A stretch of DNA of 64,000 nucleotides from Tribonema minus (lineage: Eukaryota > Sar > Xanthophyceae > Tribonematales > Tribonemataceae): contig JAFCMP010000139.1 of assembly GCA_017506865.1 (NCBI GenBank), forward strand, positions 62,001 through 126,000, given 5' to 3'. Shown in pieces: positions 4,285-31,200 of the stretch. Positions within the stretch are counted from its first letter, which is position 1, and each line of letters starts with the position of its first letter. The position numbers were made by a program, and so were the translations under genes. Under the pieces are notes generated by a model that saw only the letters and a program-made list of their open reading frames with translations, did not search any database and had not been told where the DNA came from.

Positions 4285-7200
4285 GTGAGTCTTCAAACTT
4301 GAAAACGTGTCTGCGCTCATTGCATGAACCTACACGGTGACCTCAGCTACGAGTTGCGTGCGGGGGTGTAACAGGCATGCACTAACAGCAACTGTTGAGA
4401 AAGGCTGGCGTTACTTATTAGGATTATCCACTCAGTGATATGAGGTACTGTAGTGAAAAAAACATGCAGTGCGAAAAGCAGGCTGAGTGTGACGTGATCT
4501 GGCCCCACCAGCAGCAGATTCTGAAGCGCACTCAGACGAGGCTCACTGACAGTCTCAGACTGCCAGGTTTACATGCAGAATCTGGTTTTTGTGCAAAACG
4601 TCCGCCACATTGTCAAGCTGCACCATCCGGAACAAGACATTGTACTGTTACAGTAACTACTAGTAGACAGCCTGAGGTCAGGATGTAAATTAAAAGACTT
4701 GGACACCCGTCGGCGACCTCCCTCGGCCCGGGGGCTTTGATCACTACATTGTCAAGTCTTAGACTCAGTGCGTGCGCATGCGGGGGTGTAACAGTAAATG
4801 TTAAAGGACTTCTTTCAGGCGTTGAACTTGGTGATTAGTCCACTCAGTAATATGTCATTGAGGTTATTAACTGTAAGTTACTGTTACAGTTACTGTTACA
4901 GTAGTGACAACATGCAGCATGATCTGGCCCACCAGCAGCTGCTGCAGTGCCGCAGCTGCAGCTGCTGTGCAGCGTCACTGACAAGGTCTATAGTATACTA
5001 CAGCATACTTAGTCTACTACTAGTAGTACTACTACTAGACTAAGTGACTACTACTAGTGACTAGTAGTAGTACTAGTAGACTATAATAGTTACAAGTATA
5101 ATGTACTTCAGTATAAAACTTTGTGCAAGGTGTCGGCCACAAGCTGCACCGCCAGTGGTCCAGCCGATGATCGGAAGGCTTAGGTAGCATCGAATGGGAC
5201 GACAGCGGGTATAGGCAACTTGGAGGTTGCATGCGGATCGCGGTCAACCTGAAGGTACAGTACTGTTACGGTAGTGCAATTTGTGTAGTATTAATATATA
5301 GTATGTACTGTTTGCACCGTGCCGCTACTACTAGCCTTTTGAAAGTTACCAAGTTGAACGTCACGGTTACAGTAACTGTTACAGTAGTACGCACACTTTT
5401 TCAGTTTGCAACTTCCGGACTGTCAGGTCCAGGACCTGCGCGACGGCCAAGCACCTGACTCAGTGAGTAGTGCACTGAGTGTCGTCGCAGCCCCAGCCTG
5501 TTAGTGAGGCGGCCGGGGCCTTAACGATTTTTTAAATGTTCTATCCCTGCGAGTTGGTATCTTACTATACTTACTTGAATATCCAATTTACCTGCTGTCT
5601 TCCAAATCGGCACTGCAGCAGGAGCTGCAGCTGCTGCAGGCGAAGCGCAAGCTTTTGGACACATGCCCATTGGGCTCCGCTTGCTCGTACAACTGCGAGG
5701 ATCACTGCAAGATCGCGTGCGACAAGCTCCACATCCCCTTCAAGAGCTCGAGCCAGTGCTCGCGTGTGCAAACCAGGCGCGAGCTGATGCGCAAGCTGGC
5801 CGCAGCCCAGACGTTCCGGGTGAGTAGCATCTGAAGCCTCAAGACACACTGACTGTCGCACAAGTGACTGAATGCAGACTTGGAGTCACTGACGGTCCTC
5901 TGAGTCGTGGCTAGCAGGGATCATCCGATCAAGCGATTGTTACAGTGACTGTACTACTAGTAGCTCGAGCGTCAATGACAGTATCTGCCCTAAGTCCTTG
6001 GAGTCGCTCAGCTAATCCCTCTGAAAGCCTAAATACTGCCAGTGGAGGGGGCCTCAGGCTGGAGCAATATTAAACTTTTCAATGAACTGACAAATTGATT
6101 GTTCATCATGGCTGATTACCCGGCCTAGCCTAAGGGTTGGGTTCAGATAATCTGATCTACTACTAAGACTATCCTAAGGCGAAGCGTTACGGTAGTGGCA
6201 CTGCCTTAAACTTGAAGGGTTGGACCCACACTGGCCACGCTTGAGGAATACCTTATTCATGACCATTGTTATTTTCTGACCTCAGAACTGCAGTGCGCAT
6301 CAACGCCACCGCAGATACGCTTGCAAGTCACGCACCCTGGCGCAGCTCAGCCCCCCGGCCGGCAGCCTTGCTATGGCCCACCAGGTCTTTGAAAGTAGCC
6401 TAGACTGAGTCCAACACTCGGAGTTGCATTCTCTGACTGTTGTGGTGCCATTCTGCATGATGTGTATGCTGGTGATTATCATGATGGCAACTGCTGCGCT
6501 GCGCGCTGCCTCTGCAGACAGCAATGCCCTCAGGCTGGCCGAGCTGCGGGCCGCAGGCCCTATAGTGTCAGTTGAGGGTCGGCGGTCACTGTGACAGTCA
6601 CTCAGTCTGGCACTGTGCAAGTCTAAGGCACTCCGGGATTGATGACATTGTGAAGTAAAATAACGCCATTACGGCATCATGATGTCGTGATAGCATATGC
6701 CACTGGCATATCAGTGACGACTGCTGCACTTTGTGCCGCCGCCTGACGCAGACATGCTCGACGCCCCAGCCGTCGGCGAGCCGCGCCCTGGGTGACGAGG
6801 GTGACCACCGCGGACTGGCCGGCGCCAGGACCTCCTCGGAGACGGGCCTCTGCTGCTACTGCCACCGCGCGCCGACGCCCGCGCCCACAAGAAAACCAAC
6901 CACTAGAAAGCCAACTACACGCAAGGTACATGTTCATAAACCCAATGCCTCAGCTGGCCGACTCGGACAGATGCGCTGTTGAGCGTTCGAGGCTTGCTTC
7001 GAACTGCCTGACAGCTCTAAGTACTACTACTTGTGAGCTTCACCTGTGCAAAAGCCAAATGCGCGCAATGTACTCATCCGCCAGCCTGACTCAGAGTGTC
7101 ACAGCATCTTAGATTGCCTGATGGCATGATGATCAGTGATGTGTTGTTGAGCTGCCGCCGTGCCTGGTATCGCATCACTTGACAATGTGATTGCACACTC

Positions 7201-10200
7201 CTAACTTGAAGGCTTGTAGTTCTCACTGACAGGCCGCGGACGTGACTCTGCGGCTTGTCGTCTCACGCATCCACTAGTGTGCTGACACACCATTACGGGT
7301 GTGCTTCTGCTTTTTGCACCACCGTACAGCCGACCACACAAAAGCCCACACGCGAGCCAACTTCAAACCCGACGTCCAAGCCCACTACGCGCAAGGTGCG
7401 CTTACTTATACCGTGTGCTCCATCATGCAATGAAAATCAGCGTCACTGCAGGTATTTTTGCGCCTAGCATGAAGAGGGGGGATGGACGTGGTTTTTGTGG
7501 TGTGAGAAAAAGTGGATGCAATCAGAGACTAGCACAAAACGTAGGACGACGCTCAAGGTGCGCAACAACTGTTACAGCACGCTGCTGGTGTGCGCATCGT
7601 TGTGGTGGTCGCTTCAAACGGTGGCTGCGTGCACAAGTCTGAGCCATGATGAGCCCCGTCACATGGCCACAAGGATTGCTGGCGCTTCGTGAGCTCTGTT
7701 TATCAAAGCATCTATTTTCCGAAAAGATCACACTCAAAACTTGCGGAGCTCTAGATATTGCGTACAAGCCGAGGGCACGGGCGTAAGAATGACTTGAGTT
7801 GTTGTTTTGACGCATCAACACATTCACACGATACTTGTGGCCGCCGCGTTTCTCGTACACGTTTACTGAAGAAGTATACGAGCTGCTGAATGAGGCAAGT
7901 TGAATTCATCAAAGCCGTTGTGATACTGGTCAGCAGCTGTCGACTGGCGGGTGCGCCTCGACCACTCCATCTTTGTTTGGCAGTATATTCAAATTGTTAA
8001 TTGCATAAAAAAATTGTAGTACTGCGAAGCAGTGGTTCGATGTTCGGTGCCCCAACAATTGCTTAAGCCAAGCGGAACCACTGTTCGCGCCATCTTGTCG
8101 CGAACTGTATTGTAGGGCTTATGACAGCAGCATTTGGTTCTTATGGTGTTGTTGGCGGCAAAACGGGCGCACTGATCCACAACATGGCGGACTCCGGAAG
8201 AGTTTGCAGCACGCAAGGAGAGCGCCTTCGGGCACGGACTTAGGGAATTTAAGAGCTTCGCGGTAGCGAGGAGAAGGGGGGCACTCTCTACCTCGGAGTC
8301 CGCTTTTCAGAGGGGGCTCTGCAGCAATCATGTCCTATTTCGCTGCTCCCCAGTCTCAATGACATGGTGGAGCTCTTCAAGTGAGCTTAACGGGGGTACG
8401 GAGGAGGCCCGTCTGAGTCCTATCCATAAATATTTTATGATAGGAGTGAGTGTTTGTGCCAATGCTCCCAGCAACGCCGTGACGGCGTGCACAAGCTCAA
8501 TAGCAGCATGCGTGTTCTATACGACGTGGTGCAGCATTGGGTTTCCGCCCCTCAAGCGGGAGTAAATAAAGTACTTCAAAGTATACAACTACTGTACATG
8601 CATATACTGCGAGCGATTTGGTGCGAGTTGAGTACGCAGGGCTAGCGGCGGTGGCAAATCACTCAGAGTCGGCGGCCTAGCGCCCAACTGACTACGTCAG
8701 CTTCAAGTCACGGCGGAGCCTAGTAGTACTGTTATCATTCAGCACTTAGTCTAAGTCTTCAAGAAGTTCAGCAAGAGCTCAGAGTCTGCAACTTGAAGTG
8801 TGCGCAAGACACTGGCAGGCAATCATGTACCTTCAAGCCATAACACGGCGAACTGACCTGCCTATCGGTTGGTCATTTCCATTTCACAGCCTACCAGCAC
8901 GCCTACAGCCAAGCCAACTGCGAAGCCTACTGCCGTGCCCACGGCAGTTCCAACCTCTAAACCTACCGCCACGGTAAGTTGTCTTGTCAGACTCTTTGTG
9001 CAGCTGCTTGTACTTTTCTGATTTGAAAGGCCTGGTGGCAGCAGCGCTTACATGCTTACTGAAGACAAACATTTATTTCTTCATGATAGATTGATCATTG
9101 AACGTTTGCACCATGCTTGATGAATGGTATTGCACTACAGTAGATAGGCAAATACATACTATTATACAAGCATAAAGTGGCGTCCATGCGATTTGGTCTG
9201 GGGCTGAGAAGGACTAGCAGTGGTGCAATCTGACTCAGAGCCCTCACATACCGTGGAGTGTCAAGTCCTCTCTCTGAGCCAGCGAGCCCGCTACTGAACC
9301 GATTGCGGAAGCAACTCCGCTATAGGCCGAAGACTGGTACATATCTGGTGGCAGAAGCCAGCAATACAGCCAGTGTGGTGTTGGGCATTGCGACATGATG
9401 TAAATTATATTTATGGAATCCGCCTTAAAGTTTCCGGAGCCATGAAGAGCAGTCACCATGATGGACCTATCTATTTGGTGTTGTGACACGACCTAGGTGG
9501 AGCTGTTGATGAAGTAAGGTTGCGTAACGGCTGGTACGCGACATGCCTTTTGTGCTATACCTAAGATTATCATACCCAACACTATGATTCCTGCCAGTGA
9601 TAGGACTGCTCTCCACTGCCTTTGACTGCTGGCTATGGTCTCATTTGATATGGGCTTGCACGCAGCACATGGGCATGTGGAATAATTGAATTAATTATTG
9701 AGGTCTCAGGAGTCGTAAGGTGTGTAGTTTCTAGCAGTAGAGACTCTGGCATCAGAACAACACAGCAGTGAGGCAGCTCAATGACATACTTGATATGATG
9801 TCGTACAGGTACCGAGACACGTGCATAACACATGTGTCGACAACACCTGGACGCACATTGGCGCCATGCGTCGCACGTCAAGTGCATTAAATTCTGCTCA
9901 TTCAACAATTTGAAAGTAAAAGCCTTTATGCCAGTGGCTGACAATTGCTTAAGCCCATGGCAACATTCAAAGTTTACGGTAGCCAGAGCCTTAGGCTAGC
10001 GCCCAACTGACTGCCTGAACTCGAAGTCACGGCAGACTCTGAGCCTACTGACATCATGCAGCACTTCGGCAGCAGATCTGGAAGCGTGCGCAACACGATA
10101 CTGTCGGACAGGCCGGCAATTATATATACCTTCAACATGTTGATAAACTACTAGAAAAAAAATGCCAGCACTGTGCTCTCGAATTCTACAGGACAGGGGC

Positions 10201-13200
10201 AGCTCACACACTGTCAAGGAGATCATGACGTCACTTAGACTCGACTCAAAAATGCCGGCCAAATGGAATGCTATTCGATCATTCTACACGAACATGACAC
10301 TCTTAACAGTGTACCACTTCAAAGTACTTGTCAATGACCACTCTCTTTAAAAAATGAGTAGCCCTCGTTCTTTTAAATTAGTTGCTCGACCCGTCTTGTC
10401 TGTGATACATGATGTACCTGCAGTCATATCATATCGTGGTGTTGGGCACACCACATGAACCGGCCTTCAACATTGCCGCAACCTCTCATTTCGAAGTCAG
10501 CAACCAATTATGGCTGACAGTTGCTTAAGCCCATGGCAACATGTACGGTGGCCTGAGCCTAGCGCTCAACTGACTGCCTGAACCCTACTAGTAAGTCATG
10601 GCGGAATCATTAGCCTCTCAGCAACTTATTGAACAGCTCTGCAAGCGTGCGGAAGCCAACAAGCAGGCAATCATGTGCCTTCAAGCCACAACATGGTTAA
10701 CTAACCTGCTCATCGGCTGGTCAATGACATTTCCATCATGATTTTACAGCCCACCAGCACGCCCACATCCAACCCAACTGCGAAGCCTACTGCCGTGCCC
10801 ACGGCGCATCCAACCTCTAAGCCTACAGCCACGGTAAGCTGCTTTGTCGGACACTTCAAACTTTCAGCAGCCGCTTGCCAGTTGGAAAGACCTGAAGGCA
10901 GCTGCTGGTGCTCACTTGGCATGCTTACTTTGCAGAAAATTGCCCAATGGCATGCCCAAGTTGATTATCACAATGGTTGCAGCATGGCTATAGTATTGTA
11001 CTAGTAGTACTACATGCAAGCATAAGCTGGCGTGCATGCAATCACTGATAGCCTGAGGGCTGCCAGTGGCCAACTGCCAGGGGTGCCTGAGTACGCACTG
11101 GCAGGCTAGTAGCAGTGGTGGCAAGTTACTCAGTCTGTGACAGTGAGAGTTCTCATGGTGCACATTCCTTGGAGTGTCAAGTCCTATGAGTCACTAAGCC
11201 CACTGCTGAACCGACTGCAAAAGCAATCACCATGACCTGGAGACTTGTACATTTGATAAACCAGGTGAATCACGTGCACTTGTAAATTTATAGTACACTC
11301 CATATGTGTACCACAGTGACTCAGACTCTAGTGGAGTAGAGTCACTGGTAGTAGAGTGGATAGTTACTGTAGAACAAGGCACTAAATTTTTACACAACAA
11401 GCCTTAGGGCAGCTCACACATTGTCAACGACTTTCATTTGGACTCGACTAATAATTGCCTGCCAACAGGTGGACGCATTGTCAACGACTTTCATTTGGAC
11501 TCGACTAATAATTGCCTGCCAACAGGTGGTCCAGGAGTGCCTCTCGATCATTCTACACAAAAATGCAGCTCTCAACTGACAGTCTGTGTACCATTCGACT
11601 AAATTAAATCTTGTTCATAATAATGAGTAGCAATTGTTCTCTGACTAGTCACATAGAATGCTCTACTTGTCCCACCTGTGATACAGTCAAATTGTGGTTT
11701 TGGGCGTACAACATGAACCGACCTTCTGGGCCATGCAGAGCAGTCACTCACATTGACTGATGCAGCGCTATGCGCCACATGTCATTGACAAGTGCACCAA
11801 ACCAGCCTGTGTTGCAGCCAAAACCCATTGATGGTCATAATGGGTGACAATCTTGATGGCTCAAGCCCATGGCCACATTTACGGCCAGAGCCAGGCCCTG
11901 CAGCAACAGTTACTGACTGCCTGAACGCAGGGCCTACTAGTACAAGGAAGTCATGGCGGACCCTACTGACATCAATCAGCACTTCAGCAACAGCTCTGCA
12001 AGCGTGCGCAAGACGATCGTTAACAGGCAGGCAATGATTATCGTACTTGCAACCCACAACATGCCAGTGGTGAACTGACTGCCTATCGGTTGGTCTTTTC
12101 TATGTCACAGCCTACCAGCACGCCCACAGCCAATCCAACTGCGAAGCCTACTGCTGCGCCCACGGCCAATCCAACCTCTAAGCCTACCGCCAGGGTGAGT
12201 TGACTTGTAGGACTCTTTGAGCAGCATTACATACACAGTTCAACAGGAAAGGCCTGGTGGCAGCAGTGCTCATCTGCTTACTGAAAGCAGACTGCCAAAT
12301 GTATGAATTGGTCATTACAATGTGTGCAGTATGTTTTTTCATGAATATATTGTACTGCTTCAAGTATACTATCATGTCCTGGTGTGCGTGCAATACGGTA
12401 TGGGGCTTGTCAATGAGTACTTCGCAGGGCTATGTAGCGGTGGTGGCAAGTGACGCAGAGTCCTCACACGCCGTGGAGTGTCAACTCCTCTGAGTCAGCT
12501 GACTTAGAGCCCGCTCCTGCACCGATTGCGCAAGCAATCACTATGACCTGGAGACTTGTAATCTGGTGGTGTAGTACTTGAAAATGTGGAGTATATTTCA
12601 ACATGTAAAGCATACTCTTAGACTAGTGCTACTATTAGGGTAGTAGAGTGAATTAGAGTGAAAGCACTCGAATTTGATGCAAGAGTAAAGGGCAGCTCAC
12701 ACACGGACTTGTAACTTAAGTAACAATTGTACTCGACCCAAAGATGGCCTGCCAACTGGAGTGCTATTTGAACAATTTGTGAACACAAAAATGTAATCCT
12801 CAACAGTGTACTTTGCGACTAGTCTTAGACTTGTTGAAAATCATGAGTGACAATTGTTCTCTAGATATTCTGCAGTTACTGTAACTCGTCTTGCTTGTGA
12901 TACTATATCAGTCATGTCGTGGTGCTGAGCACGCCACATACTATAGTACACCGCCTTTCCGGACCACAACGAGTATGGACCAACTTAGTAAGTCAAGTGC
13001 ATTTGCAGTTTTGTAGTCAGGCGTCATTTGTGGCTGACAATTGCGCAAGCCCATGGCAATATTTACTGTGGACAGTGCCTACTTGCGCCGAATTGACTGG
13101 CAGACTGCCTGACTTCAAGTCATGCAAAGCCCATCAGCAGCACTTCAGCAACAGCTCTGCGAGCGTGCGCACGACAACTTGTTGAACAGGCAGGCGATCG

Positions 13201-16200
13201 TTCCCTCAATCCACAACATGGTGAACTGACTCAGTCAGACCTGCCTGTCGGTTGGTCATTTCCTTGTTACAGCCTACCAGCACGCCCACAGCAAACCCAA
13301 CTGCGAAGCCTACTGCCGTGCCCACGGCAGATCCAACCTCTAAGCCTACCGCCACGGTAAGTTGTCGTGTTGGACTCTTTAAGCGGTCGCTTGTACCGTA
13401 ATGTTGCAAAGGCCTCAACCTGGTGGCACTGCAGCAGTGCTCAAATGCTAGCTGGTTTGGAAGACAAATTGTACAGATTCAGTCTATATGTATTTGTGAT
13501 AAGATGATCATTATAATGTTCACATCATATTCTTAGTGTTGTACTACTACACAGCATTGCTAGCAAGAACTGCCGTGCGTGCAACTTGGTCTGCCCCAGG
13601 GGCTTAAGTACGTAGGGCCAGCAGTGGTGGCAGGTGACTCAGAGTCCTCGCATGATGTGAAGTGTCAAGTTCTCTGAGTCAGCTGAGACCACCTTTGAAT
13701 CGATTTTTTTTCCGAAACCAACATGTGGCCTGGAAACTTCAAATTATACATCTGCCATTGGTAGTGTTAACCAGCCAGCCACTGTCACTGAAATGTTGGG
13801 CACATTACGTAATCCGACTTTCCGGGGCCATGAAGAGCAGTCATAATGGACCAACTTGGTGTGCAGTGCGCCCAGGTATTAACGCATATGGGCGCCATGC
13901 ATTGCATGTCAAGACTTATAAGTACTTAGTGCATTAAGTTTTTCTTCTTCTTAGTTACATGACAGTCATTTATGGCTGACAAGCTCATGGCAACACTTAC
14001 GGTAGCCAGAGCATAGTGTCGCCCAACTGACTACCTGAAGCCTAAGTTATGGAGAAGCCTACATAAAGTGCACTGACATTATTCAGCACTTCAGCAACAG
14101 CTCTGCAAGCGTGCGCAGACAACAGGCAGGCAATCGTACCTTCACTCCACAACTTGAACATAGTGAACTGAGTCAGTCGGACATGCCTGCCCATCGATTG
14201 GTCATATCCATTTTACAGCCTACCAGAACGCCAACAGCCAACCCAACCGCGAAGCCTACTGCTGTGCCCACGGCAGATCCAACCTCTAAGCCTACCGCCA
14301 CGGTGAGTTGACTTGTCGGACTCTTTGAGCAGCATTACTTACACAGTTCAACAGGAAAGGCCTGGTGGCAGCAGTGCTCACATGCTTAGTGAAAGCACGC
14401 CGCCAGATGTATGAATTGATTATTAATGTGTGCAGCATGTCTTTTGTAATTATTTTTGTACTGCTTCACACTATCATGAACTGGTGTGCGTGTGATGTGG
14501 TCTGGGGCTTGAGTAATACGCAGGGGTAGCGGTGGTGGCAAGTGACGTAGAGTCCTCACACGCCGTGGAGTGTCAACTCCTCTGATCAGACTCGAGTCAG
14601 CTGAGCCCACTCCTGAACCAATTGCACAAGCAATCACTATGACCTGGAGACTTGTACTTTGGTAGTGTAGTAGTTGTAGTAGTTGAAAATGTGGAGTACC
14701 TTTAATCATGTAGAGCATACTCTACTTCGTGCTATACTCTTAGGGTAGTAGTGTAAATAGTAGAGTAAAAGCATTCGAATTTGACGCACGAGTAAGGGGC
14801 AGGTCATACACAGATTTGTAACTTTTAATAGTAACAATTGTACTCGACCCAAGAATGGCCTGCCAACTGTAGCGCTATTTTACATTCTAGCCTATTTGAA
14901 CATTTTTCAAACACAAAAATGTAATCCTCAACAGCGTACTTTGCGACTAGCCTTAATGACTACTTGAAAATACTGAGTGACAATTGTTCTCTACTTGGAT
15001 ACTCTAAAGTTATTTTAACTTGTCCTGCCTGTGATACTGTATCGGTTGTAGTGAGGCAACCCTAGGTGGAGCAGTAGTTGAAGTAGGGTTCGAATTGCAA
15101 ATGCCTTTTGTGCTATATAAGACATCTGGCACCATGACCTCCTGACTGGACTTCTTTCCACCGCCTTGGCTGCTGGCATTGCTTCCATTTTATATGGGCT
15201 TGCACACAGTACACGGGTGTGTGGAACTGAGGTCTCAGGAGTGCTGAGGTGTGTAGTTTTCTAGTTTGTAGTACATTTTAACAGCAGTGAGGAAACTTGT
15301 GCTCAATATGGCAATCGGCAGGACACATTGTCGTACAGGTCGAAATGCGTTGCATAGACCACCTGGGCGCACACGGTCATCTTGTGGTGCTGGGCACGCC
15401 ACATACACCGCCTTTCCGGACCACAGCCAGTGTGGACCAACTCAGTCTCTCCGGACCACAGCCAGTGTGGACCAACTCAGTAAGTCAAGTGCATTTGCTG
15501 TTTGGTAGTCAGGCGTTATTTGTGGCTGACAATTGCAGTGCTCAAGCCCATGGCAATATTTACAGTGCACAGTGCCTACTCGCGCCGAATTGACTGGCAG
15601 ACTGCCTGAAGTCAAGTCATGGCAAAGCCCATCATCAGCACTTCAGCAACAGCTCTGCGAGCGTGCGCAAGACAACTTGTTGAACAGGCAAGCGATCATT
15701 CGTTCAATCCGCAACATGGTGAAGTGACTCAGTCAGACCTGCCTGTCGGTTCGTCATTTCCTTGTTACAGCCTACCAGCACGCCCACAGCAAACCCAACT
15801 GCGAAGCCTACTGCCGTGCCCACGGCAGATCCAACCTCTAAGCCTACCGCCATGGTGAGTTGTCGTGGGGGCCTCTTTGAGCAGCCGCTTGTATTGTGCT
15901 GTTGAAACTTTTCAGGCAGGTGGCGCTGCAGCAGTGCTCAAATGCCAAGTGGTGTTCAGAAGACAAAATGTATTGACTCAGTCTGTATGTAATTATGATA
16001 AGTTGCTCAATTCAATCTTAACAACATGTTTTTAAATAGTGTTGTACTACTACTGTACACGGTATTGCTAGCAAGAACTGGCGTGCGTGTAATTTGGTCT
16101 GGCCCAGGGGCTTAAGTACGCAGGGTCAGCGTTGGTGGCAAGTGACTCAGGGTCCTCATATGCCGTGAAGTCAAGTTCTCTGAGTGTCGCTGTGCTGATC

Positions 16201-19200
16201 CCACTTCTGAACCAATTTTTTTGGGCAAAAACAATACGCTCTGACATGAAAACTTTGTTGTACATCTGCCATTGGTAGTGTCAACCAGCCAGCCACTGTC
16301 ACGGTGATGTTGGGCACATTGCGTACTCCTACTTTCCGGGGCCATAAAGAGCAGTCATAATGGACCAACTAAGTTGGTGTGCGCCCAAGTATTGACGCAT
16401 ATGAGCGCCATACATTGCATGTCGAGACTTCGTGCATTTGGTGTTTTATAGCTAGCAGCCATTGATGGCTGACAAGACCATGGCAACATTTACGGTAGCC
16501 AGAGCATAGTATCACCCAACTGACTGCCTGAGGCCTAAGTTATGGAGGAGCATATAGTGTACTGACATCATTCAGCACTTTAGCAACAGCTCTGCAAGCG
16601 TGCGCAGACAACAGGCAGGCAATCGTACCGTCACTCCACAACTTGAACATAGTGAACTGACTCAGTCGCACATGCCTGCCCATCGATTGGTCGTTCCCAT
16701 TTTACAGCCTACCAGAACGCCCACAGCCAACCCAACTGCGAAGCCTACTGCTATGCCCACGGCAAAACCAACCTCTACGCCTACTGCCACGGTAAGTCTT
16801 GTCGGGCCCTTCGAGCAGCTGCTTATCATAGTATACTGTTGAAAAGGCGTAGTGGCAGCAGCGCTCACACGCTTACTGAAGGCAAATATATACGAAAAGG
16901 AATCAAAAGATCGTAGAGCTCTAGGTGACATGGGATGGTTATATATATATATGATATTTATGATAAAAGTGACCATTAATGTGTGCAGTAGTATTGTGCT
17001 AATACATACTAGCATTAATCGGCGTGCATGCAATGGTCTGGGGCTTGGGTACGTAGGTCTAGCTGTGACAGCTATCTGACTGAGAGTCCTCACATGTTGT
17101 ACTACATCAATTGCTTTCAGCATCCGCTGAGTCTGACTCACCTGAGCCCACTCTTGAACCAATTGCGAAAGCAAAGCACGCTTATGACCTGGAGACTTGT
17201 TATCATAAATATCATATTGTTCTTGAAATGGAAATGTAGAGTACATGCAGTGCACTCCCATATGTAGAATATACTCAAATGTTACAGTTACAGTAGCAGC
17301 TGAGAGTAGTACCACGTAGGTTGAATAGTAGCGTACAGCACTTGGGTTGTATGCAACAAGCACAGCTCACACAAGAAGTTGCCAGTCGTACTCAACTTAA
17401 AACATACATGTCACTCTCAAGAGTGTACTATTCGACTACTCTAGTTAAAAAATGAGTAGCACTCGTCGTCTAGCTACTCTACTCGTCCTGCCTGTGATAC
17501 TGTCATGACTGCAGTCATATTGTGGTGTTGGGCACGCCATATGAAGTCCCTCTCCGGGGCCGAGAGCAGGCAGTATACGTTTATGGACCAACTCAGCGCC
17601 ACATTGTAAGTCACGTGCATTCGCTGTGTTGTAGCCAGGCACCATTAGACTTTATGGCTGACAATTGCTCTGGCCCATGGCAATATTTACAGTGGACAAA
17701 GCCTAGTAGCACCACCATGCAGCAGTTCAGCAAAAGCTTTTCATCATACGCACCACAACAGGTAATCATGAACTTGAAAGTCAAGCCATATTATGATGGT
17801 GGACTGACGTGCCTATCCGTCGGTCAATGGCATTTCCATTTTACAGCCTACCAGCACGCCCACAGCAAACCCAACGGTGAAGCCTACTGCCGTGCCTACG
17901 GCAGATCCAACTTCTAAGCCTACTGCCACGGTAAGTTGACTTGGCAGACTCAGAGTCTTTGAGCTGCCACTTGACTGAATCGACTGTTGGAAAGGCCTGG
18001 TGGCAGCAGTGCTTATGTACTTACCAAAGACAAAGGCATACTTCAAAGTAGTCTATGTACATTTAAAGTACTACTTGAAGTACTTGCTTATGTTATTGCT
18101 AAATTGATCATACAAATGTTTGCAGCATGTTTATAAACAGTACCGTACTACTACATCCAATATTAGTAATTATATTGCTAGCATAAGGTGGCGTGTGTGC
18201 AATTCGGTCTGGGGCTTAAGTACACAGCCTGAGGGCTAGCGGTAGTGGCAAGACTTGTCGAGTTCTCACATAATGCTGTGGACCGGCAAGTCCTCTGAGT
18301 TCGCTGAGCTCACTCCTGCACCAAGTGCAAAGCAATTGCGCTATGACCTGAAGACTTCAAGTTGCACATCTGCCAGTGGACTACATCATTTAGTATAGCA
18401 GAGGACAGTAGTACAGCCACTGTGGCACAGTGACTGTGATAGTGGACACATTTTGTGATTGTCCTTTCTGTGGTTGTTAAGAGCAGTCATTATGGACCAA
18501 CTTTGTGTGCGCAGGTGTTGGCCCACATTACGCATTGCGTCCGACGAGTCGCATGTCAGGATGTGGTGATTTGGTGCATTTGCTGTTGCACAATGATCAG
18601 CCTTTCTGGCTGACAAGCCCATGGCAACATTTACGAGCCAGAGACTAGCGCCCAACTGACTGCCTGAACCTGAAGTCATGGGAGAGCCTATTGACATTAT
18701 GCAGCACTTCAGCAGCAGCTCTGCAAGCGTGCGCAGACGACAGGCAGGCAAAATCACCTTCAATCCACAACTTGGTGAACTGACTCAGTCGGACCTGCCT
18801 TTGGCTGGTCATTTCTATTTTGCAGCCTACCAGCACGCCCACAGCAAACCCGACTGCGAAGCCTACTGCCGTGCCTACGGCAGATCCAACCTCTAAGCCC
18901 ACCGCCACGGTAAGTTGTCATGTCGGACTCAGATCTCGAGTCTTTAAGCGGCCGCTTGACGCTTGACAAGTTGAATGACAGTAACTTTTGAAAAGGCTGG
19001 TGGCAGCAGTGCTCAAATGCTTACTGAAGACTGTGGCTAATGTATGAAGTATGAATATTTATGACAAAGCGATCATTAATTCGACCATTAAATGTTTGCA
19101 GCATGCTTTGTGGATTTTACCACTTCATGCAAGCATAAGCTAGCGTGCATGCGCTTTGTTCTGGGGCTTGTGTATGTAGGTCCAACAGTGACGGCAATCT

Positions 19201-22200
19201 GACTGAGAGTCCTCACATATTGTATTACTTCTGTTCAAATTGCTTTCAAGATCCTCTGAGTCGGCTGAGCCCACTCTTGAAGCACTGGCGCTTGCGAAAG
19301 CAATCATGCTTATGACCTCCGGCAATCTGACTGAAAGTTGTAATACGTAAATTTGCTGTGAAAAATCATCTGAGTCGCGGAGCCCACTCCTGAACCATTT
19401 TTGCAAGCAATCACGCTTATGACGGAGACTTGTGATCTGTAGTATGCTCTGGAAATGCAGAGCATACTCCATTATGTAGAGCATACTTGAGTGTACAGTC
19501 GCAGAGTAGTACGTATGGACTTGTATTTATAAAGGCCCAAGGGAGGCCGGGTTGCCTATGCAATCGAAAAGCTTGCGTCAACGCAGCAGCCTAGTCTGCG
19601 CTGTGCCCTAGGAGCTTGGATACCGGCGCCGCAACACAGCCCAGCATTCGCGCTCCACGTGTGTACGCCATGACGCGCTCCGCCAACTCCCGCGCCAGCG
19701 ATATGCTCAGCTCAATGAGGATCTGACGCTTAGCTAACCCGGCCTTGCGTAACACATCTGCCTTCCCCCCCCCTGAGCACAGTGCTGAGTGCATTGCCAA
19801 CTCCTTAACAAAAAGGCTTGTCTGCTTGCCCAGCCGTCCGTACGACTCCTGCACGAATGGCACAAAAGCCCAAGATGACGTCAAGGTGCCGGTGTGGTGC
19901 TTGACCTTCGCGTCCTCCCCCACCCCAGCAGCATAGCCGTCCGTGTTCGAGGCATTTGTTTTGCCTGTCAGGTACGAGCTCGCTGTGGGCGCGCGCACAC
20001 TTGTGTCTAGCACTATTCCCTTGTTACGGTATGCACTGCTAAAGTGCAGACACCCTGGGTCAATGACTGTGTCCGCCCGATACCCCGGTACCTTGAAGAC
20101 GCTAGCGTCCTCATTGCGGACAATAGAGACATGGTGCTGTCTCAAGATGCGCTGCAGGCACCGCTTTTGGGCAGTGTGTGTCGCGTTGTGCCCCCGTATG
20201 TGCTGGCTGGGGCAGCTGATCGCATGCGTGGAGGTGGGGCTCACATCACTGCACCGCCATGGGCACACCTCGCCCTGTATGCCCCACCCGTCTATGAAGA
20301 TCGCAATCAAAATCATCGTGGCTGCTGCCATGCTGGAGATGAGCGCCGCACCCGGGCGGTCATTGGCAGTGGGTGGCACGCTCATCCACGCCATTGCCCC
20401 GGACGCACGCTGGCTGCGCAGCTGCGCCAGGACCCGTGCGCTAGCCTGTTGGCGGCGGCGGCTGGTGTCGCGCGAGTCACCAATAGGTGCAGCCTGCGTC
20501 GGCTTGCCCACGGCACCAGCCGAGGCAGCCTCTAGGTCCTCCACCAGGCAATCCTCGTATTGACGTCGAAGAACATTTGAAAGGCCGGCTTGTAGTCCGT
20601 GCGTGAAGTGACCGCGCCGGCGGCGGGGCACTACCTTCCTGCAGATCTCGTCAGCATAGGCCTCCCAGTCGTCGTCGTCGTCCTCCTGCCCGCCGCTGCA
20701 GCTGCTTTCTTCCGCGCTAGTTTGTGTTTTAGCGGGCGTGGAAGGGGCAGCCGCGGCAGCGGCTTGAGGGCCAGGTACGGTCGCCGCCGCAGCGGCCGCC
20801 TCGGCGCCAGGCACAATGCCGTGGGTGTGTGGGGCTGGCTCAGTGGTCACTGTCTCCGTGACGGCAGTTGCGGCGTAGATCGCTTGCACCTCAGTGGGGA
20901 GCGTCGACGCTGCGGCCGTCGTATCTGCTGCCCACCGTAGCAACGATGCTGGGAGCTGCTCGGCCACAGCTGTGCGTGATTTTTCGCCGCCATCAGCTGT
21001 CAGCGCTCGCGTAGAGCGTCGCACGGCCTCGATGATTGGCGGCAGTCCCTGGTCCTCGCGTATTGCGCATGAGTGCTGCGCGAACCAGGTGACTGCGCCG
21101 TGTTCGTCAGTGCCGAGCCTCAGGGCCCCTGCTGCCACAGTGGCATGAATTATTGCCGGCCTCAGTGTTGTGCATGCCTGGGCTGTGTATGCGGCTGGTG
21201 CCAGTAGCCCCAAAAGCGGCATGCCCAGACCGCCTCGTCGCTCCGGCAACCGTGACGCCCGCAGTGGCACTGCGATGTCCGTGAGTTCTGGCGGGCCCAA
21301 GCGCGGCAATACCAGCACGCTGCCACTGCTGGCTTCCTCATTGTCGCCAGCAGTGCAGGCGGCCAGCAGGTGTGACTTCATGGCTGCCGCGGTAGAGCAG
21401 CCGTGCAGATGCAGCATGCGTTCGAGCGTCCATGCACAGAACCCGTCAAACGCGTGCAACCATGTCTCACTCAAAGCCGTGTCAACGACCCGAGCTAAGA
21501 AGCCCATGCGCTTCGTCAGTGACCTGCGTAGAATGAACTGTGCTGCCTGTAGGTGATGCCGCGCCATTCCAGCTAGCTGCCACGACAATCGCCATGTCCC
21601 TGCGTCGACAAGATGCTTGCTCATGGCAGCGTGCACATAGGCTGGGTGCCCTACCGGTACCCCGACCGACGTAAAGCCCTGACTGGATTCTGGCATGGTG
21701 GTGTCCACAAACGGTATGTCAAGGGCGCGCAGGCGTGCTCTGGCCGCTTCATCAAACACTGTGCCGCGCATGGCGATGGCCAGCGACTTGTCTGGTCGAA
21801 CGCGTAGGCCCCCTGCCGCCAGCCGGCGGATCACCTCTGCCACCCCAGCGGCCGCTGCATCGTCGAAGTAGGCAGCTTGCAGCACGTTGAGGTCATCCAG
21901 GAAAGCGCAGTGCGGGGCTGGCGGTTCCGCTGTGCTGTGGCCGTAGGCCGGCATACTGCCGGGCGTCGCATTCACTCCATCAGGGTAGAAGAGTAGGAAG
22001 GCCGCTGCCACTGCAAAGTACAGCGGCCCTAGAGGGTCCCCTTGCTGGCACCCTAGGTGGGAGCAGATAATGCGAGCTTCACCGTTCACCTCCACCCGCA
22101 TCTCTGGGGCAGTGTCACCACAGTATACGGACTCAAAGTGCGGGAGCAGCTCCGGACAGAAGAGCATAAGCCCCCGCACAATGGCGGCGCGATCCACACT

Positions 22201-25200
22201 GTTAAATGCGTTCTCACAGTCCAGTTGGATAGTGGTGCCATACAGCTCGTGCCACACGCGCGCGCGCGCTGCCACATGCTCGACGCCAGACCGGTATCCT
22301 ACGCCAAACTGCGACATGGAGGCCAGCAGCCCCGATATCTTGCCCTTGACACTCCGTGCCGCTGTGGACCCGAGGAGTCTGCGCCAGACACTGCAGAGTA
22401 GTACTGCGTAGAGAGAACAGTATAGTACAGCACTTAAATTCCAAGTAGCAAGCACAGCTCACACAAGGAGTTGTCACTCATACTTGACTCAAAAAGGCAT
22501 GCGAACTGGGTTGCCATCCGAACATCTTACGCATACATGTGCACATTACTCTCAATAGTGCACTACTCAATTACTTTATTTCAAAAAACGAGTAGTGCTC
22601 GTCGTCTAGTTGATCTACTTGTCCCACCTGTGATGCTGTATCAGTCGTATTCTGGTGCTGGGCACGCCATATGAAACGCCTTTCCGGGGCCAAGAGCAGT
22701 CAGTATACATTTATGGACCAACTTAACGCCATGTTGTATTTCATGTGCATCTGCTGTTCTGTTGTCAGGCACCATTTATGGCTGACAATTTCTCAAGCCC
22801 ACATTTCACAGTGGAAAGAGCCTATTCCTAGTGCACCCATCGCGAAGCGGTTCAGTGAAAGCACTGCAATTGTGCGCAGCACAACAGGCGACCATGACGA
22901 ACGTCACAAATCAAGCCATATATATCTTTTTGACTGCGGATATAGGTGTACTGCTTGACTTGTGGCCAATTGCTGCAGCAGCGGCGACCACGGTCATTGA
23001 TGGAAGGCACTTGCGGCTAACCATCCCTTGTCACCTAGAGGTCTACAATCTTTTGATTCATTTTCATAAATGATGGTGAACTGACCTGCACATCGGTTGG
23101 TCAATCACATTTCTATTTCACAGCCTACCAGCACACCCACAGCCAACCCAACTGCGAAGCCTACTGCCGTGCCCACGGCGGATCCCACCTCTGAGCCTAC
23201 TGCCACGGTAGGTTGTCTCGTCGGACTCAGAGCCTTTGAGAAGCCTCTTGACAAACTGAATCGACTGTTGAAAAGGCCTGATGGCAGCGGTGCCCACATG
23301 CTGGCTCAGGCTGATTCAGAAGACAAATGTATGGTCTGTACATATTTGACGTAAATGATAAATTGATCTTTGGAATGTTTGCAGCACTTTTACAAACGTA
23401 CTGCTATATCCAGTATCGCTAGCATAAAGTGGCGCGCATGCAATTTGTTCTGGGGCTTGAGTAGTACGCAGCCTGAAGGCTAGCGGTGATGGCAAGGCTT
23501 AACGAGTCCTCACATGATGCTGTGGACTTCCAATGTCCTCTGAGTCCGCTGAGTTCACTCTTGAACCAGTTGCGAAAGCAATCGCACTGAGAGTTCAAAT
23601 TGTGCATCTGCCAGTGGTGATATCAGGTACTACATAGTACAGCATTATAGCAGACTCTCAGACTCTGAGGTCAGCAGTACGGCCACTATGGTACTTGCAC
23701 ATTTTGTAATCCTCCTTTCTGCGGCCATGAAGAGCAGTCAACTGGGTGTGCGCTCAGGTGTTAGTGCACATTAGCGCCATGCGTCGCTTGTCCAGACCTG
23801 GTGCTTTTGCTGCTTCACAGTTAGCAGCTTTGTCTGGCTGACAAGCCCATGGCAGCATTTACGGTAGCCAGAGCCTAGCGCCCAACTGACTGCCCGAACC
23901 TGAAGTCATTGTGGAGCCTACTGGCATCATGCAGCACTTCAGCAACGGCTCTGCAAGCATGTGTAGACAAGGGGCAGGCAAAGTCGTGCTTTCAATCCAC
24001 AACATGATGAACTGACTCAGGCAGACCTGCCTATTGTCTGATCATTTCCATTTCACAGCCTACCAGCACGCCCACAGCCAGCCCAACTGCGAAGCCAACT
24101 GCCGTGCCCACGGCAGATCCAACCTCTACGCCTACCGCCACGGTAAGTTGACTTGCCGGACTCAGAGTCTTTGAGCAGCCGCTTGACAGTATTTTAGCAT
24201 TAACATGGCCATGAGCAGGGGCCATGCGCATGAAGTTGAAAAGGCCTGGTGGCAGCAGCGCTCACATGCTTACTGAATACACATGGAGTCTATATGCATT
24301 TAAAATGATGAATTAATCATGAAAGATTTGCATCATGTCATGAATAGTACTTTGAAGTATCGTACTACTAAAAACAGTAACTACTAGCATAATCTGGCGT
24401 GCGTGCGGTTCGGTGTAGGCCTTAGAGTATGCAGGTCTAGCGGTTGTGGCAAGTGACAGGTAGCCCTCACATGTTTGGAGCATCAAGTCCTCTGTATCAG
24501 CTGAGCCCTTAGGCTGGGCCAGTCCTAAACCAATTGCGGAAGCAATCACACTGTGACCTGGAGGCTTCAAGTTGTACATCTTCCAGACTGAGTGGTTGTG
24601 TTAAGTATAGCAGAGGCCCGACTCAGCACCATAAAGTACCGGGTAAACAGCCCCCTAGCGGTGAACAGCCTCTGCGCTGTAAAAGACCCGGGGGTCTTAT
24701 AGCACCAGGGGGTCACTGCCTCCTTGAGCCCCCATACATGGTAAAAGATCCGGGGGTTGTTTGCCATGTAATGCTTTTGTTGTAACCTATACCCATGTCA
24801 CCACAATTATACTCAGAGCACCATGAGTAACGTGTGTTAATGTGTGCGTATGTCATGTCACCGTGCCTGACAGCACATGCTGCCCTGCTCAACTGCAGAT
24901 ATATTATATTATTGTTGTGTGTTTATTTGTTAGGCCTAACCCTTCTTCAAGTCCGTTCTCCAAGTTTTTTTTGCCGAGGTGGAAAGCGAAAGGAGTCCAC
25001 GCTGACCGTGGATCGGACCTCACTATTATACTTTAGGCTATAACGGTGTTGCAGCCATTGCCTGACTTGTCAGGCATGCGCCCGAGAGGTCCATCCATTG
25101 TGTCATCACAACAATGATGTCGGCGCCCTTTCTGTGAGCAACTACAGTACACAGCGCGCTGGTGATCCTCTCGAATACTTCAAGAACCAAAGCGCAGCGC

Positions 25201-28200
25201 TGCAGCCCATGCTGTGAGTAATTTTGCAGGGACGCAATCGGTAAACAGCCCACGCATGGCAAACAGCCCGGGTGTTTTGCCAGGCGCAGCTTGCCAGCAC
25301 GCATATGTGCCAGCTTAAGCCCCCCCCTCTGGTCAACGCCCCCTGCGCAGTAAACGACCCCTTGGTTTATGGCACCTGAGCCCTCTGCCAGCCAAGACCC
25401 GGCGGTCGTTTATCCGGTACTTTACAGTAGTACAGCCATTGCCACAGTGTGTTGGGCACATTACCTTCATCTCCTTTCTGCGGCCATCATGAGCAATCAA
25501 TTCGGACAACTGAGTGTGCGCCCAGATTCTGATGCACACTAGCGCCATGTGTGGGCATGTCAAGACTTGCTGCATATGCTGTCTCATAGGCAGCAGCCTT
25601 TGATGGCTGACAAGCTCATGGCAACATTTACGGTAGCCAGAGCCTAAGTAGCGCCCAAGTGACTGCCAGTGCTGAACGTGAAGTCATGGCGGAGCCTACT
25701 GCAGTGGCATCATGCAGCACTTCAGCAACAGCTCTTCAAGTGTGCGCAGACAACAGGCAGGCAAAGTGGTACCTTCAATCCATACCATGGTGAACTGACT
25801 CAATCGGACCTGCCTATCGGCTGGTTGTTTCATTTCCATTTTACAGCCTACCAGCACGCCCACAGCCAACCCAACTGCGAAGCCTACTGCCGTGCCCACG
25901 GCAGATCCAACCTCTACGCCTACCGCTACGGTAAGCCTTCAAGTTGTCGGACCCTATAAAGTTTCAGCAGCTGCTCATGCTGTTGGAAAGGCCCGTTAGC
26001 AGCAGCGCCTGCATGCATACCGAAGCCAAACATTTAATGTTTTATGATAGATTGATGATTACATGATAGAAGTATATAAATGGCATTGAACTACAGTAAG
26101 TAAGCAACTACGTAAAAGCGTACATACCATTTGGTCTGGGGCTGTCAGTGAGCATGAGTACGCAGGGTAGCGGTGGTCACAACCTGAATCAGAGTCCTCA
26201 CACGTTGTGGAACACCAAGTCATCTGAGTCAGCTGAGCTCACTTCTGATTGGATTGCAAAAGCAATCACGCTATGATCATAAGGCTGGTACATCTGGTGG
26301 TGGTTTACAAGTAAAGTAGAGTTCGATAGAACAGCCACTGTGGTGCTGGGCACTGTGACATCATGTAGTACGCCATTCCGGGGCCATGCAGAGCAGTCAG
26401 TATGAGCCGAATTGGATTTGACGCCATGCGTCATATGTCAAGTACATAGGATTTTGCTGTGTCATAGTGATCAGCCGTTTATGCCAGTGGCTAACAAGTG
26501 ATTATTAGTATTAATAAGCCCATGGCCACATTTACGGCAGTCAAAGTCGCAGGCTGAGTCCGATTGACTGCCTGAACCCGAAGTCATGGTGGAGCCCCTG
26601 ACAGCAATCAGCCTTGCGCAACAGCTCTGACAGCATTCAGCACTTCAGCAGCAGCTCTGCAATCATGCGTAGCACAACTGTTACAGGCCGGCAACCGTAC
26701 CTATAATCCACAAGATGATGCTGAACTGACCTGCGCATCGGTTGGTCAATCACATTTTTATTTCACAGCCTACCAGCACACCCACAGCCAACCCAACTGC
26801 GAAGCCTACTGCCGTGCCCACGGCGGATCCCACCTCTGAGCCTACTGCCACGGTAGGTTGTCTCGTCGGACTCAGAGCCTTTGAGAAGCCTCTTGACAAA
26901 CTGAATCGACTGTTGAAAAGGCCTGGTGGCAGCGGTGCCCACATGCTGGCTCAGGCTGATTCAGAAGACAAATGTATGGTCTGTACATATTTGACGTAAA
27001 TGATAAATTGATCTTTGGAATGTTTGCAGCACTTTTACAAACGTACTGCTATATCCAGTATCGCTAGCATAAAGTGGCGTGCATGCAATTTGTTCTGGGG
27101 CTTGAGTAGTACGCAGCCTGAAGGCTAGCGGTGATGGCAAGGCTTAACGAGTCCTCACATGATGCTGTGGACTTCCAATGTCCTCTGAGTCCGCTGAGTT
27201 CACTCTTGAACCAGTTGCGAAAGCAATCGCACTGAGAGTTCAAATTGTGCATCTGCCAGTGGTGATATCAGGTACGACATAGTACAGCATTATAGCAGAC
27301 TCTCAGACTCTGAGGTCAGCAGTACGGCCACTCTGGTACTTGCACATTTTGTAATCCTCCTTTCTGCGGCCATGAAGAGCAGTCAACTGGGTGTGCGCTC
27401 AGGTGTTAGTGCACATTAGCGCCATGCGTCGCTTGTCCAGACCTGGTGCTTTTGCTGCTTCACAGTTAGCAGCTTTGTCTGGCTGACAAGCCCATGGCAG
27501 CATTTACGGTAGCCAGAGCCTAGCGCCCAACTGACTGCCCGAACCTGAAGTCATTGCGGAGCCTACTGGCATCATGCAGCACTTCAGCAACGGCTCTGCA
27601 AGCATGTGCAGACAAGGGGCAGGCAAAGTCGTGCTTTCAATCTACAACATGATGAACTGACTCAGGCAGACCTGCCTATTGTCTGATCATTTCCATTTCA
27701 CAGCCTACCAGCACGCCCACAGCCAACCCAAGTGCGAAGCCAACTGCCGTGCCCACAGCAGATCCAACCTCTACGCCTACCGCTACGGTAAGTCTTCAAG
27801 TTGTGGACCCCTTCAAAATTTGGTACAGCTGTTGAAAAGACCTGGTGGCAGCAGCGCTCACATGCTTACTGAAGACAAACCCATGTCTTTTTATGATGAA
27901 TTGACCGTTAAATGTTTGCAGCATGCTTTGTCAATGGTACTACCGGGTATTGTACTGCTGTAACTTAGAAATACATGCATAAACTGGCGTGCGTGCGATT
28001 TGGTCTGGGCTCGGCTTGAGTTCGCAGTGCTACCAGCGATGGTGGCAATCGGACTCGGAGTCCCCACATGCTGTGGAACATCAAGTCCTCTGGGTGAGCT
28101 GAGCCAACTTCTGAACCGATCGCAACAGCAATCACGCTATGATCTGAAGGCTGGCACATCTGGTGGTGGTTTACAAGTAAAGCAGAGGCCGGTAGAACAG

Positions 28201-31200
28201 CCACTGCAGTGTTGGACACTCTGACATCATGTAATTCGCCTTTTTCCGGGCCATGAACAGCAGTCAGTATGGACCAATTTGGCGCCATGCATTGCATGTC
28301 AAGTGCATTACATTTTGCTCTCTTAAAGTTAGCAGCCGTTCATGCAAGTGGCTGACGATTTGCTCAAGCCCAATGGCATGGCAACATTTACTGTACTATA
28401 AGTAGCCAGAGCCTTAGGCTAGCGCTCAACTGACTGCCTGAACCCGAAGTAACGGCAGAGCCCACTGACATCATTCAGCACTTCAGCAACCTCTGCAAGT
28501 GTGGGCAACACAACAGGCCAGCAACCGTACCGTCAATCCACATCATGATGGTGAACTGACCTGCCTATTGGTTGGTCAATCACATTTTCATTTTACAGCC
28601 TACCAGCACGCCCACAGCAAACCCAACTGCGAAGCCTACCGCCGTGCCCACGGCGGATCCAACATCTACGCCTACTGCCAAGGTACGTCTTGTCGGACCC
28701 TTTGTGCAGCTGCTTATACTATTGAAAAAACCTGGTGGCAGCAGCGCTCAGATGCTTACTGACACTGTGGCAACTGTGTATTCTTTGCATAATATATTTT
28801 CAATGAAAATGTTGCAGCATGTTGGTAGTACTACAGAATATTATGATTCCACCTACTAGCATACACTTGCTTGCGTGCGATTTGGTTCGGGGCTTGAGTC
28901 TACAGGCTAGCGCTGTGGCAAGTCACTCAGAGTCCTCACATGTCGTGGAGTGTCAAGTCCGCTGAGTCAGCTGAGCCCACTCGAGAAACAATTGCAAAAG
29001 CATTCACACTAACATCTGAAGACTTATAAACAAATACATCTGGTGGTGATCTAAAATTATAGTGGAGGTCGGTAGTACAGCCACTGTGGTGTTGGGCACA
29101 CCATGTAATCCGCATCTGCTGGCCTATCACGAATGACGAGCAGACATTGCTGACCAACTTAGCGCCATATGCATCTGCTGTGCCATAGTCAGCAGCCATT
29201 CATGGTGCTGCATCACCAGACCCTCAAATCTGAACTGGCTTTCTTCCACCCAGCCTGACAGCTGCAACGGTGCGCAGTGCAGATCGCCCGACCGACGTGC
29301 TCGACCCTAAGTTGTGGCAGAGCCCATCATGCAACAGCTCAGCACCAGCGCAGTGAACACGCGTATGATGACTTGTGGCAACAAAGATGGTCCTTCAAGC
29401 TTCAAAGCAATAAACTGACCTGCCTAACGACTTGCCACTTCACGTGTTTGCGTTGCAGCCCACCTTCACGCCCACAGCTCAACCTACTGCAAAGCCCACT
29501 GCCATCCCCACTGCAAAACCCACTGCTGTGCCCACCGCGAAGGCAAGTTTATTTTTGTTCTGTTGTTGTTGATGGTTAGTTTGGTTGTCTTGTGGAACAC
29601 TGCTAACTGCCGCACGTAGTATTCTTAAATGTTGTGGAAGCCTGTTGGCAGGAGTGCCCATGTACATGCTTATTGATGACTGTGTTGTGCGATTTCAGAT
29701 TGGTCTTGGACAGGAACAAGCTAACTGTGGCAGGGGATGACCCAGAGTCCCCAAATGCTGTGAAGAGTGTTGTTGTGTATTAATTGCAGTGCAGGCGTTG
29801 TTTTGTAAGCTAGTACGAAGGCCTGGTGGCAGCAGCGCTCACATGCTTACTGAAGCCACTGTGGCAAATGTATATACCTCAAGTATATGTTTTATGATAA
29901 ATTGATCATTAACATTTTTGCAGCAGTTTAGTACTACTACGAGGTATTGTAATACTACCTACTCAGTAGGCTATCATAAACTGCTGTGCATGCGATGTGG
30001 TTTGGGGCTTGATTCCGCAGGGCTAGCGGTGGTGGCAAGTCACTCAGCTCCTCACAATGTCAGTTGTGGAGTGTCAAGTCCTCTGAGTTAGCTGAGCCCA
30101 CTCTTGAAACAATCGCGGAAGCACTCACTCTATGAACTGAACATCTGGTGGTTTTAAGTATACATAGTTGAGGTTGGTAGTGCAGCCACTGCGGTGTTGG
30201 GCACACCATGTAATTCGCCTTTGCGGGGCCCATCATGATGAAGCGCAGTTAATATGGACCAACTTACCGCCATGTGCATCTGTTGTTTCATAGACAGCAG
30301 CCATTCATGGTGCTGCATCACCAGAACTTCAATTCTGAAACTGCCTTTCGTCCACCCAGTTTGGCAGCTGCATCAGCGGTGCACAGTGCAGACCGCCCGG
30401 CCGACTTGCTCGACTTTGACTTTGTTTCAGAGCTCATCATGCAGCAGCTCAGCAATAGCTCAGCAAACACGCGTATAATGTTTGAGCAACAATAATGGTC
30501 CTTCGAGCATTGATGCAATAAACTAACCTGCCTAACGATTGGCCACTTCATGTGTTTGCGTTGCAGCCCACCTTCACGCCCACAGCTCAACCTACTACAA
30601 AGCCCACTGCCACCCCCACGGCAAAGCCCACTGCTGTGCCCACCGCAAAGGTAAGTTTTTCCTTGGTGTCAGTCGGTCATCTTGTGGGACACTGCCAATA
30701 GCCGCACATGGTAATAATTTAGATGTTGCAACGGCCTATTGGCAGGAGTGCCTACTAGTGTGTGCATGTTTATTGGTGCCTGTGTTGTGAAACTCAATTT
30801 GGTCTTGAGCAAGAACAAGAGGCTAACTTTGGCAGGGGATAGAGTCCTCAAATGCTGTGAAGTGTGTTGTTATGTAAGAATTGCAGTGCAGGCATTGTTG
30901 AGCAAGTCAGTAGGATTGTGAGGGTTCTGTAAGATCATTACCTTTGCTGACATGTTTGCAAGAGAGGTCCAATACCTGATGCGAAGCTGCAGGGCTGCCC
31001 CTAGCTGAGCCTGGCGTTGCCAAAAGACCGCTCAAAGTACACAACACAAAATTGCCGTAGGCAAAACGGTATGAATACGTGTGATAGCCCGACAAATCTC
31101 ATTGGGGTCAGCATTTTCTCTCTGGGCCAGTGCAACACTCCTGCAAGTGCAGTCATTGGAGCTGCAACTTGCACACCCCTATATGAACACCATAGATGCC

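Follow-up and report, generated by a model that had tools for sequence, protein, structure and literature searches.

A 64,000-nucleotide (nt) stretch of the genome of the xanthophyte Tribonema minus (the window; positions 62,001 to 126,000 of the forward strand of contig JAFCMP010000139.1, assembly GCA_017506865.1, 158 Mb in 554 contigs) very probably contains a single gene of 22 exons, with every intron in phase 0, that encodes a probably secreted protein of 710 residues whose stalk of Pro-Thr (PT) repeats has grown by repeated duplication of exon-intron units. The assembly yields 92 matches to the light-harvesting family, as befits a photosynthetic eukaryote, and the one that was compared is nearest to proteins of the fucoxanthin type, for which the best chains are from diatoms; a chlorophyll a/c alga is thus likely. 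In what follows C139 denotes the PT array of the window, and labels such as C103, C201 and C212 denote further loci of the same assembly. In the mechanism that we propose the duplicated unit would comprise a single exon of 84 nt with about 0.8-1 kb of intron, and it would have multiplied mainly through unequal exchange between introns already alike, or through gene conversion between them. Every exon starts and ends at the edge of a codon, so that adding or removing a unit would make the stalk longer or shorter by 28 residues with no shift of frame. The number of units may vary in the population.

When one exon is taken as the reference for a scan, 17 blocks are recovered, each exactly 84 nt long, on the + strand only and in phase 0, with starts from 8890 to 30567 (Table 1). 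All 17 are preceded by an AG acceptor and 16 are followed by a GT donor, in agreement with a preliminary description of this DNA that had proposed 17 such exons in a single orientation. Each block encodes 28 residues in the form of seven PTxx quartets, and over the entire array Pro occupies 119/119 and Thr 118/119 of the expected places. The preliminary description had taken all of the exons to encode one and the same repeat; it is the PTxx pattern that is found throughout and not a single sequence, since there are 15 distinct peptides among the 17 exons, which fall into two subtypes, type 1 (15 exons) and type 2 (the two exons at 29459 and 30567). Type 1 exons differ from each other at 0-12 of 84 nt (mean 7.7, 105 pairs) and from type 2 exons at 22-27 of 84, and all 17 can be aligned with each other free of gaps. 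By comparison, the nearest other 84-mer between 7400 and 31400, apart from the exons themselves and the 84 nt that precede every one of them, shows 43 mismatches, and a chance origin of the blocks was rejected on the basis of this value and the 0-12 differences within type 1.

In order to decide what was copied it is necessary to consider the introns. The 16 introns between the array exons extend over 776-4214 nt with a median of 960 nt, which corrects the figure of about 1 kb given earlier for the intron of each unit. For 15 of these 16 introns (the one bearing a reverse-transcriptase frame was excluded) matches are obtained in 198 of 210 ordered pairs with a median identity of 71.9% (blastn, E up to 1e-4). 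Introns 5-20 of the gene are mutually similar, introns 4 and 21 match only partly, at the ends bordering the array, and introns 1-3 have no match to any other intron of the gene. The homology of the introns between the 17 exons, with introns 1-3 unmatched, shows that whole exon-intron units were copied, and the proposal of tandem duplication of such units at this locus, already made in the preliminary description, is supported. Homology to the unit begins at ~8677, close to the array start of 8640 that had been suggested.

Several longer matches point in the same direction. The stretch 23070-24148 is 98.7% identical to 26715-27793, three units away, and includes two exons together with the intervening intron, as would result from a recent conversion or duplication. 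With a shift of two units, 11965-14397 also finds its counterparts (11965-12909 vs 14072-15043 at 80.6%, and 12955-14397 vs 15447-16884 at 84.5%), and the last two units of the array match at 78%. When the intron at 13400-14180 was used as a query against the whole assembly, in a search that skips very common words, all 18 of the 18 matches, itself included, were located in the C139 array. The first array intron (9848..10736, + strand) carries the pre-exon end two times, at 9848-10096 and 10551-10736, and this may be the relic of a unit that has lost its exon. The 4.2-kb intron 18910-23123 contains a 955-residue open frame on the minus strand (19594..22458) that scores 29.9 bits with RVT_1 (cut-off 29.6); we take this reverse-transcriptase frame as an insertion that is not part of the gene. 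It could be argued that the number of units has been stable for a long time and that only gene conversion operates at present, without ongoing unequal crossing over, as the 98.7% stretch lies three units from its partner when identity is close to 70% for the majority of the remaining intron pairs. We consider this unlikely, however, because the matches at a shift of two units, and the fact that other PT loci, described below, differ widely in their number of units, argue for gain and loss in addition.

The 22-exon model extends over 4219-31695 of the + strand and encodes 710 amino acids with no internal stop, with all 22 exons multiples of 3 in length and all 21 introns located between codons. 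As predicted, the protein would consist of a signal-like start, a Cys-rich N-terminal domain, the stalk of Pro-Thr repeats and, at the C terminus, a small domain rich in Cys. Pfam assigns the PT repeat (PF04886) with 218.1 bits, relative to a cut-off of 26.2, and at E up to 0.01 no other family is matched, leucine-rich repeats (LRRs) included. The hydrophobic start and the composition suggest that the product is secreted, the composition makes it probable that the stalk is extended and O-glycosylated, and a role in the wall or at the surface may be envisaged. The predicted fold of the N-terminal exon has a mean predicted local distance difference test score (pLDDT) of 74.7 and a best PDB match with E 1.4, while that of the C-terminal exon, with a pLDDT of 51.6, was not used further. 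Matches in the PDB between the last exon and TALE repeats are taken as an artefact, no single stretch passing alone. The N- and C-terminal Cys domains show no real similarity in BLASTP (E 0.19), and that they are homologous, given the CCxCH ending that is common to both, is only a guess.

In this model the array exons would be spliced together into one mRNA. A different use of the same exons, as alternative cassettes with one or some of the 17 present per transcript, is rather improbable, even though each exon is symmetric, so that any subset remains in frame, and even though a link between the tandem duplication of exons and their mutually exclusive splicing has been drawn (PMC9013439) and the LRR exon arrays of brown algae are alternatively spliced (PMC11378527). 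The repeats are so alike that a choice among the exons would mainly alter the length of the stalk.

Turning to the question of whether the 84-nt blocks are translated, we find that they behave as coding exons under purifying selection. Among the 15 type 1 exons, variable sites number 4, 7 and 21 of 28 at codon positions 1, 2 and 3, respectively, and the ratio of nonsynonymous to synonymous differences (pN/pS) is 0.25 (bootstrap 0.10-0.49), with a value of 0.33 (0.16-0.65) when all 17 exons are included. Mean identities are 0.955 for codon positions 1 and 2, 0.80 for four-fold sites and, with the aligner used in that comparison, a somewhat inflated 0.80 for introns, these means referring to pairs of introns 5-19 and their preceding exons, again excluding the intron with the reverse transcriptase. 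Indels are absent in 136 exon pairs, whereas of seven intron pairs that were aligned six show 1.8-6.6 gap events per 84 nt, and retention of any one of the 21 introns would place between 8 and 44 stops in the reading frame. We regard it as very improbable that the PT blocks are untranslated relics in a pseudogene or a tandem array that does not code; the length of the introns, the retrotransposon-like frame in one of them and a GC donor would be in keeping with such relics, but the 710-residue open frame, the pN/pS of 0.25, exons without indels and conserved splice signals are not. Finally, introners, transposon-like introns known from diverse eukaryotes (PMC9860276) that would have inserted at the same place in an older long repeat exon, such that homologous and regularly placed introns were copied and exons were not, are very improbable, since the one intron used as a query, in a search that skips very common words, has all of its matches in the C139 array, the larger duplicated block spans two exons and their intron, and the introns at four other PT arrays are unrelated to those studied here.

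A number of observations weigh against a single gene enlarged by copying of units, and these should be kept in mind. The 22-exon model was fixed by eye on the basis of the splice consensus and should not be read as an annotation, one array donor, that of the exon at 29459, is GC instead of GT, and the C-terminal domain is without a convincing paralogue, with two further matches in the genome (E 0.48 and 0.99). The global intron identity of 0.80 is increased by the aligner, as a shuffled control gives 0.74-0.76, so that introns are as diverged as four-fold sites only in an approximate sense; because of this control we have relied on local alignments, with their median of 72%, for the introns. 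One intron pair, I14-I17, is gap-free and 99% identical, and the contrast in indels is therefore that of the other six pairs. In addition, no decayed exon is found in the array introns, and unit loss is suggested solely by the first of these, with its two copies of the pre-exon end.

Table 1. Exons of the PT-stalk gene model and left edge of the array, in window coordinates.
Feature	Position	Strand	Remarks
Exon 1	4219..4284	+	66 nt, ATG and hydrophobic signal-peptide-like stretch, judged by eye
Exon 2	5622..5819	+	198 nt, Cys-rich domain; paralogues in the genome
Exon 3	6752..6925	+	174 nt, CCYCH, then start of PT residues
Exon 4	7330..7395	+	66 nt, phase 0, irregular PT repeats
Left array edge	8677..8889	+	copy of pre-exon intron end
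PT exon 1 of 17	8890..8973	+	84 nt, phase 0
PT exon 2 of 17	10750..10833	+	
PT exon 3 of 17	12111..12194	+	
PT exon 4 of 17	13273..13356	+	
PT exon 5 of 17	14219..14302	+	
PT exon 6 of 17	15771..15854	+	
PT exon 7 of 17	16708..16791	+	
PT exon 8 of 17	17847..17930	+	
PT exon 9 of 17	18826..18909	+	
PT exon 10 of 17	23124..23207	+	
PT exon 11 of 17	24059..24142	+	
PT exon 12 of 17	25847..25930	+	
PT exon 13 of 17	26769..26852	+	
PT exon 14 of 17	27704..27787	+	
PT exon 15 of 17	28599..28682	+	
PT exon 16 of 17	29459..29542	+	subtype 2, GC donor
PT exon 17 of 17	30567..30650	+	subtype 2
Last exon	31495..31695	+	201 nt including stop, Cys-rich, terminal RCCVCH

The genome contains other loci of related type. 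A search with the Cys-rich exon 2 gives 14 matches at E up to 1, including itself and six more at E <= 3.3e-4, and in the stretches fetched runs of at least 4 PT quartets are present at 5 of these 6 paralogue loci, the remaining one being C335, where no run of at least 4 PTxx quartets occurs in the 50 kb read. A single PT exon of 648 nt is found at C103, short PT stretches at C24, and PT exons that are of mixed length and number from several to many at C368 and C201; the PT block lengths are multiples of 12 nt in 7/7 cases at C368 and in 18/26 at C201, some of the exceptions at the latter probably reflecting mis-set donors. At C508 the PT sequence is continuous with a stretch resembling exon 3, and the match to the Cys-rich exon 2 (651849-652013) has two stops; this copy, with its stops followed by an open PT stretch, is perhaps a pseudogene. 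The C103 exon illustrates a further statement of the preliminary description, according to which the expansion of repeat proteins usually takes place within a single exon, although there is good documentation of expansion by exon units too.

Additional PT loci emerged from a genome search with the Pfam PT family, in which 150 of 1026 candidates were scored and which is therefore no census. Two PT loci, C212 and C56, are not among the matches to exon 2, and they are treated as PT-repeat loci and not as established members of the same family. At C212 there is one Pfam match per ~740 bp, and in the 8 kb read a block of 264 nt is followed by nine blocks of 147 nt, in phase 0, separated by introns of 518-602 nt. 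Among the 20 repeat families listed, of 25, most copies are 97-100% identical over 300 nt; the variants are two stretches at 77-80% and the first region, that of the 264-nt exon, for which one family gives 64-65% and another register 91%. From the PT-family matches and the two stretches read we estimate that the array (~547854-568670) has ~29 units of ~741 bp, of which 28 are seen, each with a PT block: 26 units are listed up to 567090, two more lie at 567783 and 568523, and a regular position at ~565.6 kb is unlisted. When the C212 unit was searched for at the DNA level, with scores for 38 of 109 candidates, the array itself is absent among the matches listed, probably because common words were skipped. 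The term satellite-like, used earlier for the array of the window, is better reserved for C212, given that the C139 introns have a median identity of ~72% and a single pair of stretches at 98.7%. In 6 kb read at C56 there are nine PT blocks of mixed length, 144-228 nt, five of which are 168 nt. PT matches with corresponding scores occur on opposite strands at 31.7-35.6 kb and 60.9-67.1 kb of C553, which suggests an inverted duplication of a PT-exon array.

Comparison of introns within and between these loci provides a gauge of how often such amplification has taken place. Within loci, matching ordered intron pairs (blastn, E up to 1e-4) number 72/72 at C212, with a median identity of 98.3%, 80/552 at C201, 18/56 at C56 and 2/20 at C368, so that copying of units would have little support at C368 and partial support at C201 and C56. 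Between loci, the C139 introns match those read at C212, C56, C201 and C368 in 0/690 pairs (0/135, 0/120, 0/360 and 0/75 in the separate comparisons), and the only cross-locus matches, between C56 and C368, are short (5/40 and 3/40, median 31-45 nt). With no match to C139 introns at the four other arrays amplification looks recurrent, and the data are most economically read as separate amplification of units at C139 and at C212, with C201 as a further case to some extent. For old arrays it is conceivable that there was an ancient common start and that all intron similarity has since been lost, but the near-identical C212 array does not fit such a history.

The exons themselves differ in their internal 12-nt repetition, which is lowest at C139 (0.59) and amounts to 0.70-0.81 at C201, C212, C368 and C103, in line with slippage within exons at the latter four loci and with growth by whole units at C139. 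Taken further, and as a tentative proposal that we would not yet favor over its negation, PT-stalk genes may have turned independently into exon-intron arrays at least twice, each array with a private intron family and with C212 homogenised like a satellite while every unit that was read retains its open exon in phase 0; 12-nt repeats would first drive growth within exons and introns would then drive growth by whole units, in a two-step ratchet. If true, a ratchet of protein length in two steps could be observed within one species. One genome holds PT sequence as a single long exon, as exons of mixed length, as a diverged 84-nt array and as a near-homogeneous array, along with a paralogue for which the stretch read is free of long PT runs, and this variety makes the switch between in-exon and whole-unit growth amenable to test.

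Other features of the window are recorded here as separate observations. A long inverted repeat (36191-40236 vs 64000-59963, 95.3% over 4074 nt) reaches the window edge and continues as 40327-40694 vs 59836-59467 at 90.8%. A tandem duplication with a unit of ~330 nt, 96% alike, is located at 43681-44323. An ankyrin-repeat open frame whose repeats contain ANGCPW lies on the minus strand at 34467-34895, and on the plus strand an ADA2-like ZZ zinc finger is followed by a Myb-like stretch, the Myb below cut-off (52253-52795).

Growth of genes by tandem exon-intron duplication is already known, from collagen, titin PEVK, spider silk, the ROCO genes of brown algae and the LRR genes of Tetrahymena, and what is new here is the type of protein, the uniformity of phase 0 and the apparent recurrence in one genome. 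Among the papers listed in a literature search that combined algae, or stramenopiles together with haptophytes, with repeats of PT type or arrays of exons, none deals with PT-repeat exon arrays, which is not proof of absence. Repeats of ~28 residues, one per exon, are also a property of titin PEVK, in which exon lengths are not uniform. Exon duplication, with long interspersed nuclear elements implicated, has been described for this region (PMC6469411), which like C139 is a repetitive Pro-rich stretch with many similar exons but belongs to an animal muscle protein. Peptides of 28 residues are mentioned elsewhere as well (PMC9100103). Fibrillar collagen, with its 54-bp exons (PMC2852846), resembles C139 in being an extracellular rod for which duplication of a short exon unit of whole codons has been proposed, and differs in its age, its triple helix and its exons of multiples of 54 and of 45 bp. 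In spider flagelliform and Argiope MaSp2 silk genes, introns are alike within a gene and divergent between genes (PMC3522626, PMC9779670); these genes share with C139 a repetitive structural protein and repeated exon-intron pairs, and the intron homogeneity of C212 resembles that of Argiope MaSp2 (94.3-99.7%), whereas the C139 introns, at ~72%, are far less homogenised than those of animal silk.

The closest parallels come from protists and algae. Thousands of LRR genes in Tetrahymena contain arrays of exactly 90-bp exons with phase 2 introns, exon number is very variable, and unequal crossing over has been proposed (PMC6564038). In common with C139 this is a protist system with uniform exon length, a nearly single intron phase and tandem arrays, while C139 differs in encoding a PT stalk from 84-nt exons in phase 0. 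Brown-algal ROCO genes have LRR exons of 72 bp in phase 2, with up to 49 tandem LRRs (PMC11378527), and thus also combine an algal host, one exon of fixed length per repeat and a repetitive intron-exon structure; their product, however, is an LRR-ROC-COR protein under diversifying selection, as opposed to the secreted-looking PT stalk of C139, with phase 0 introns and purifying selection. To the protist genes known to be built from arrays of fixed-length exons the present case thus adds a separate type of protein, a PT stalk that looks to be secreted.

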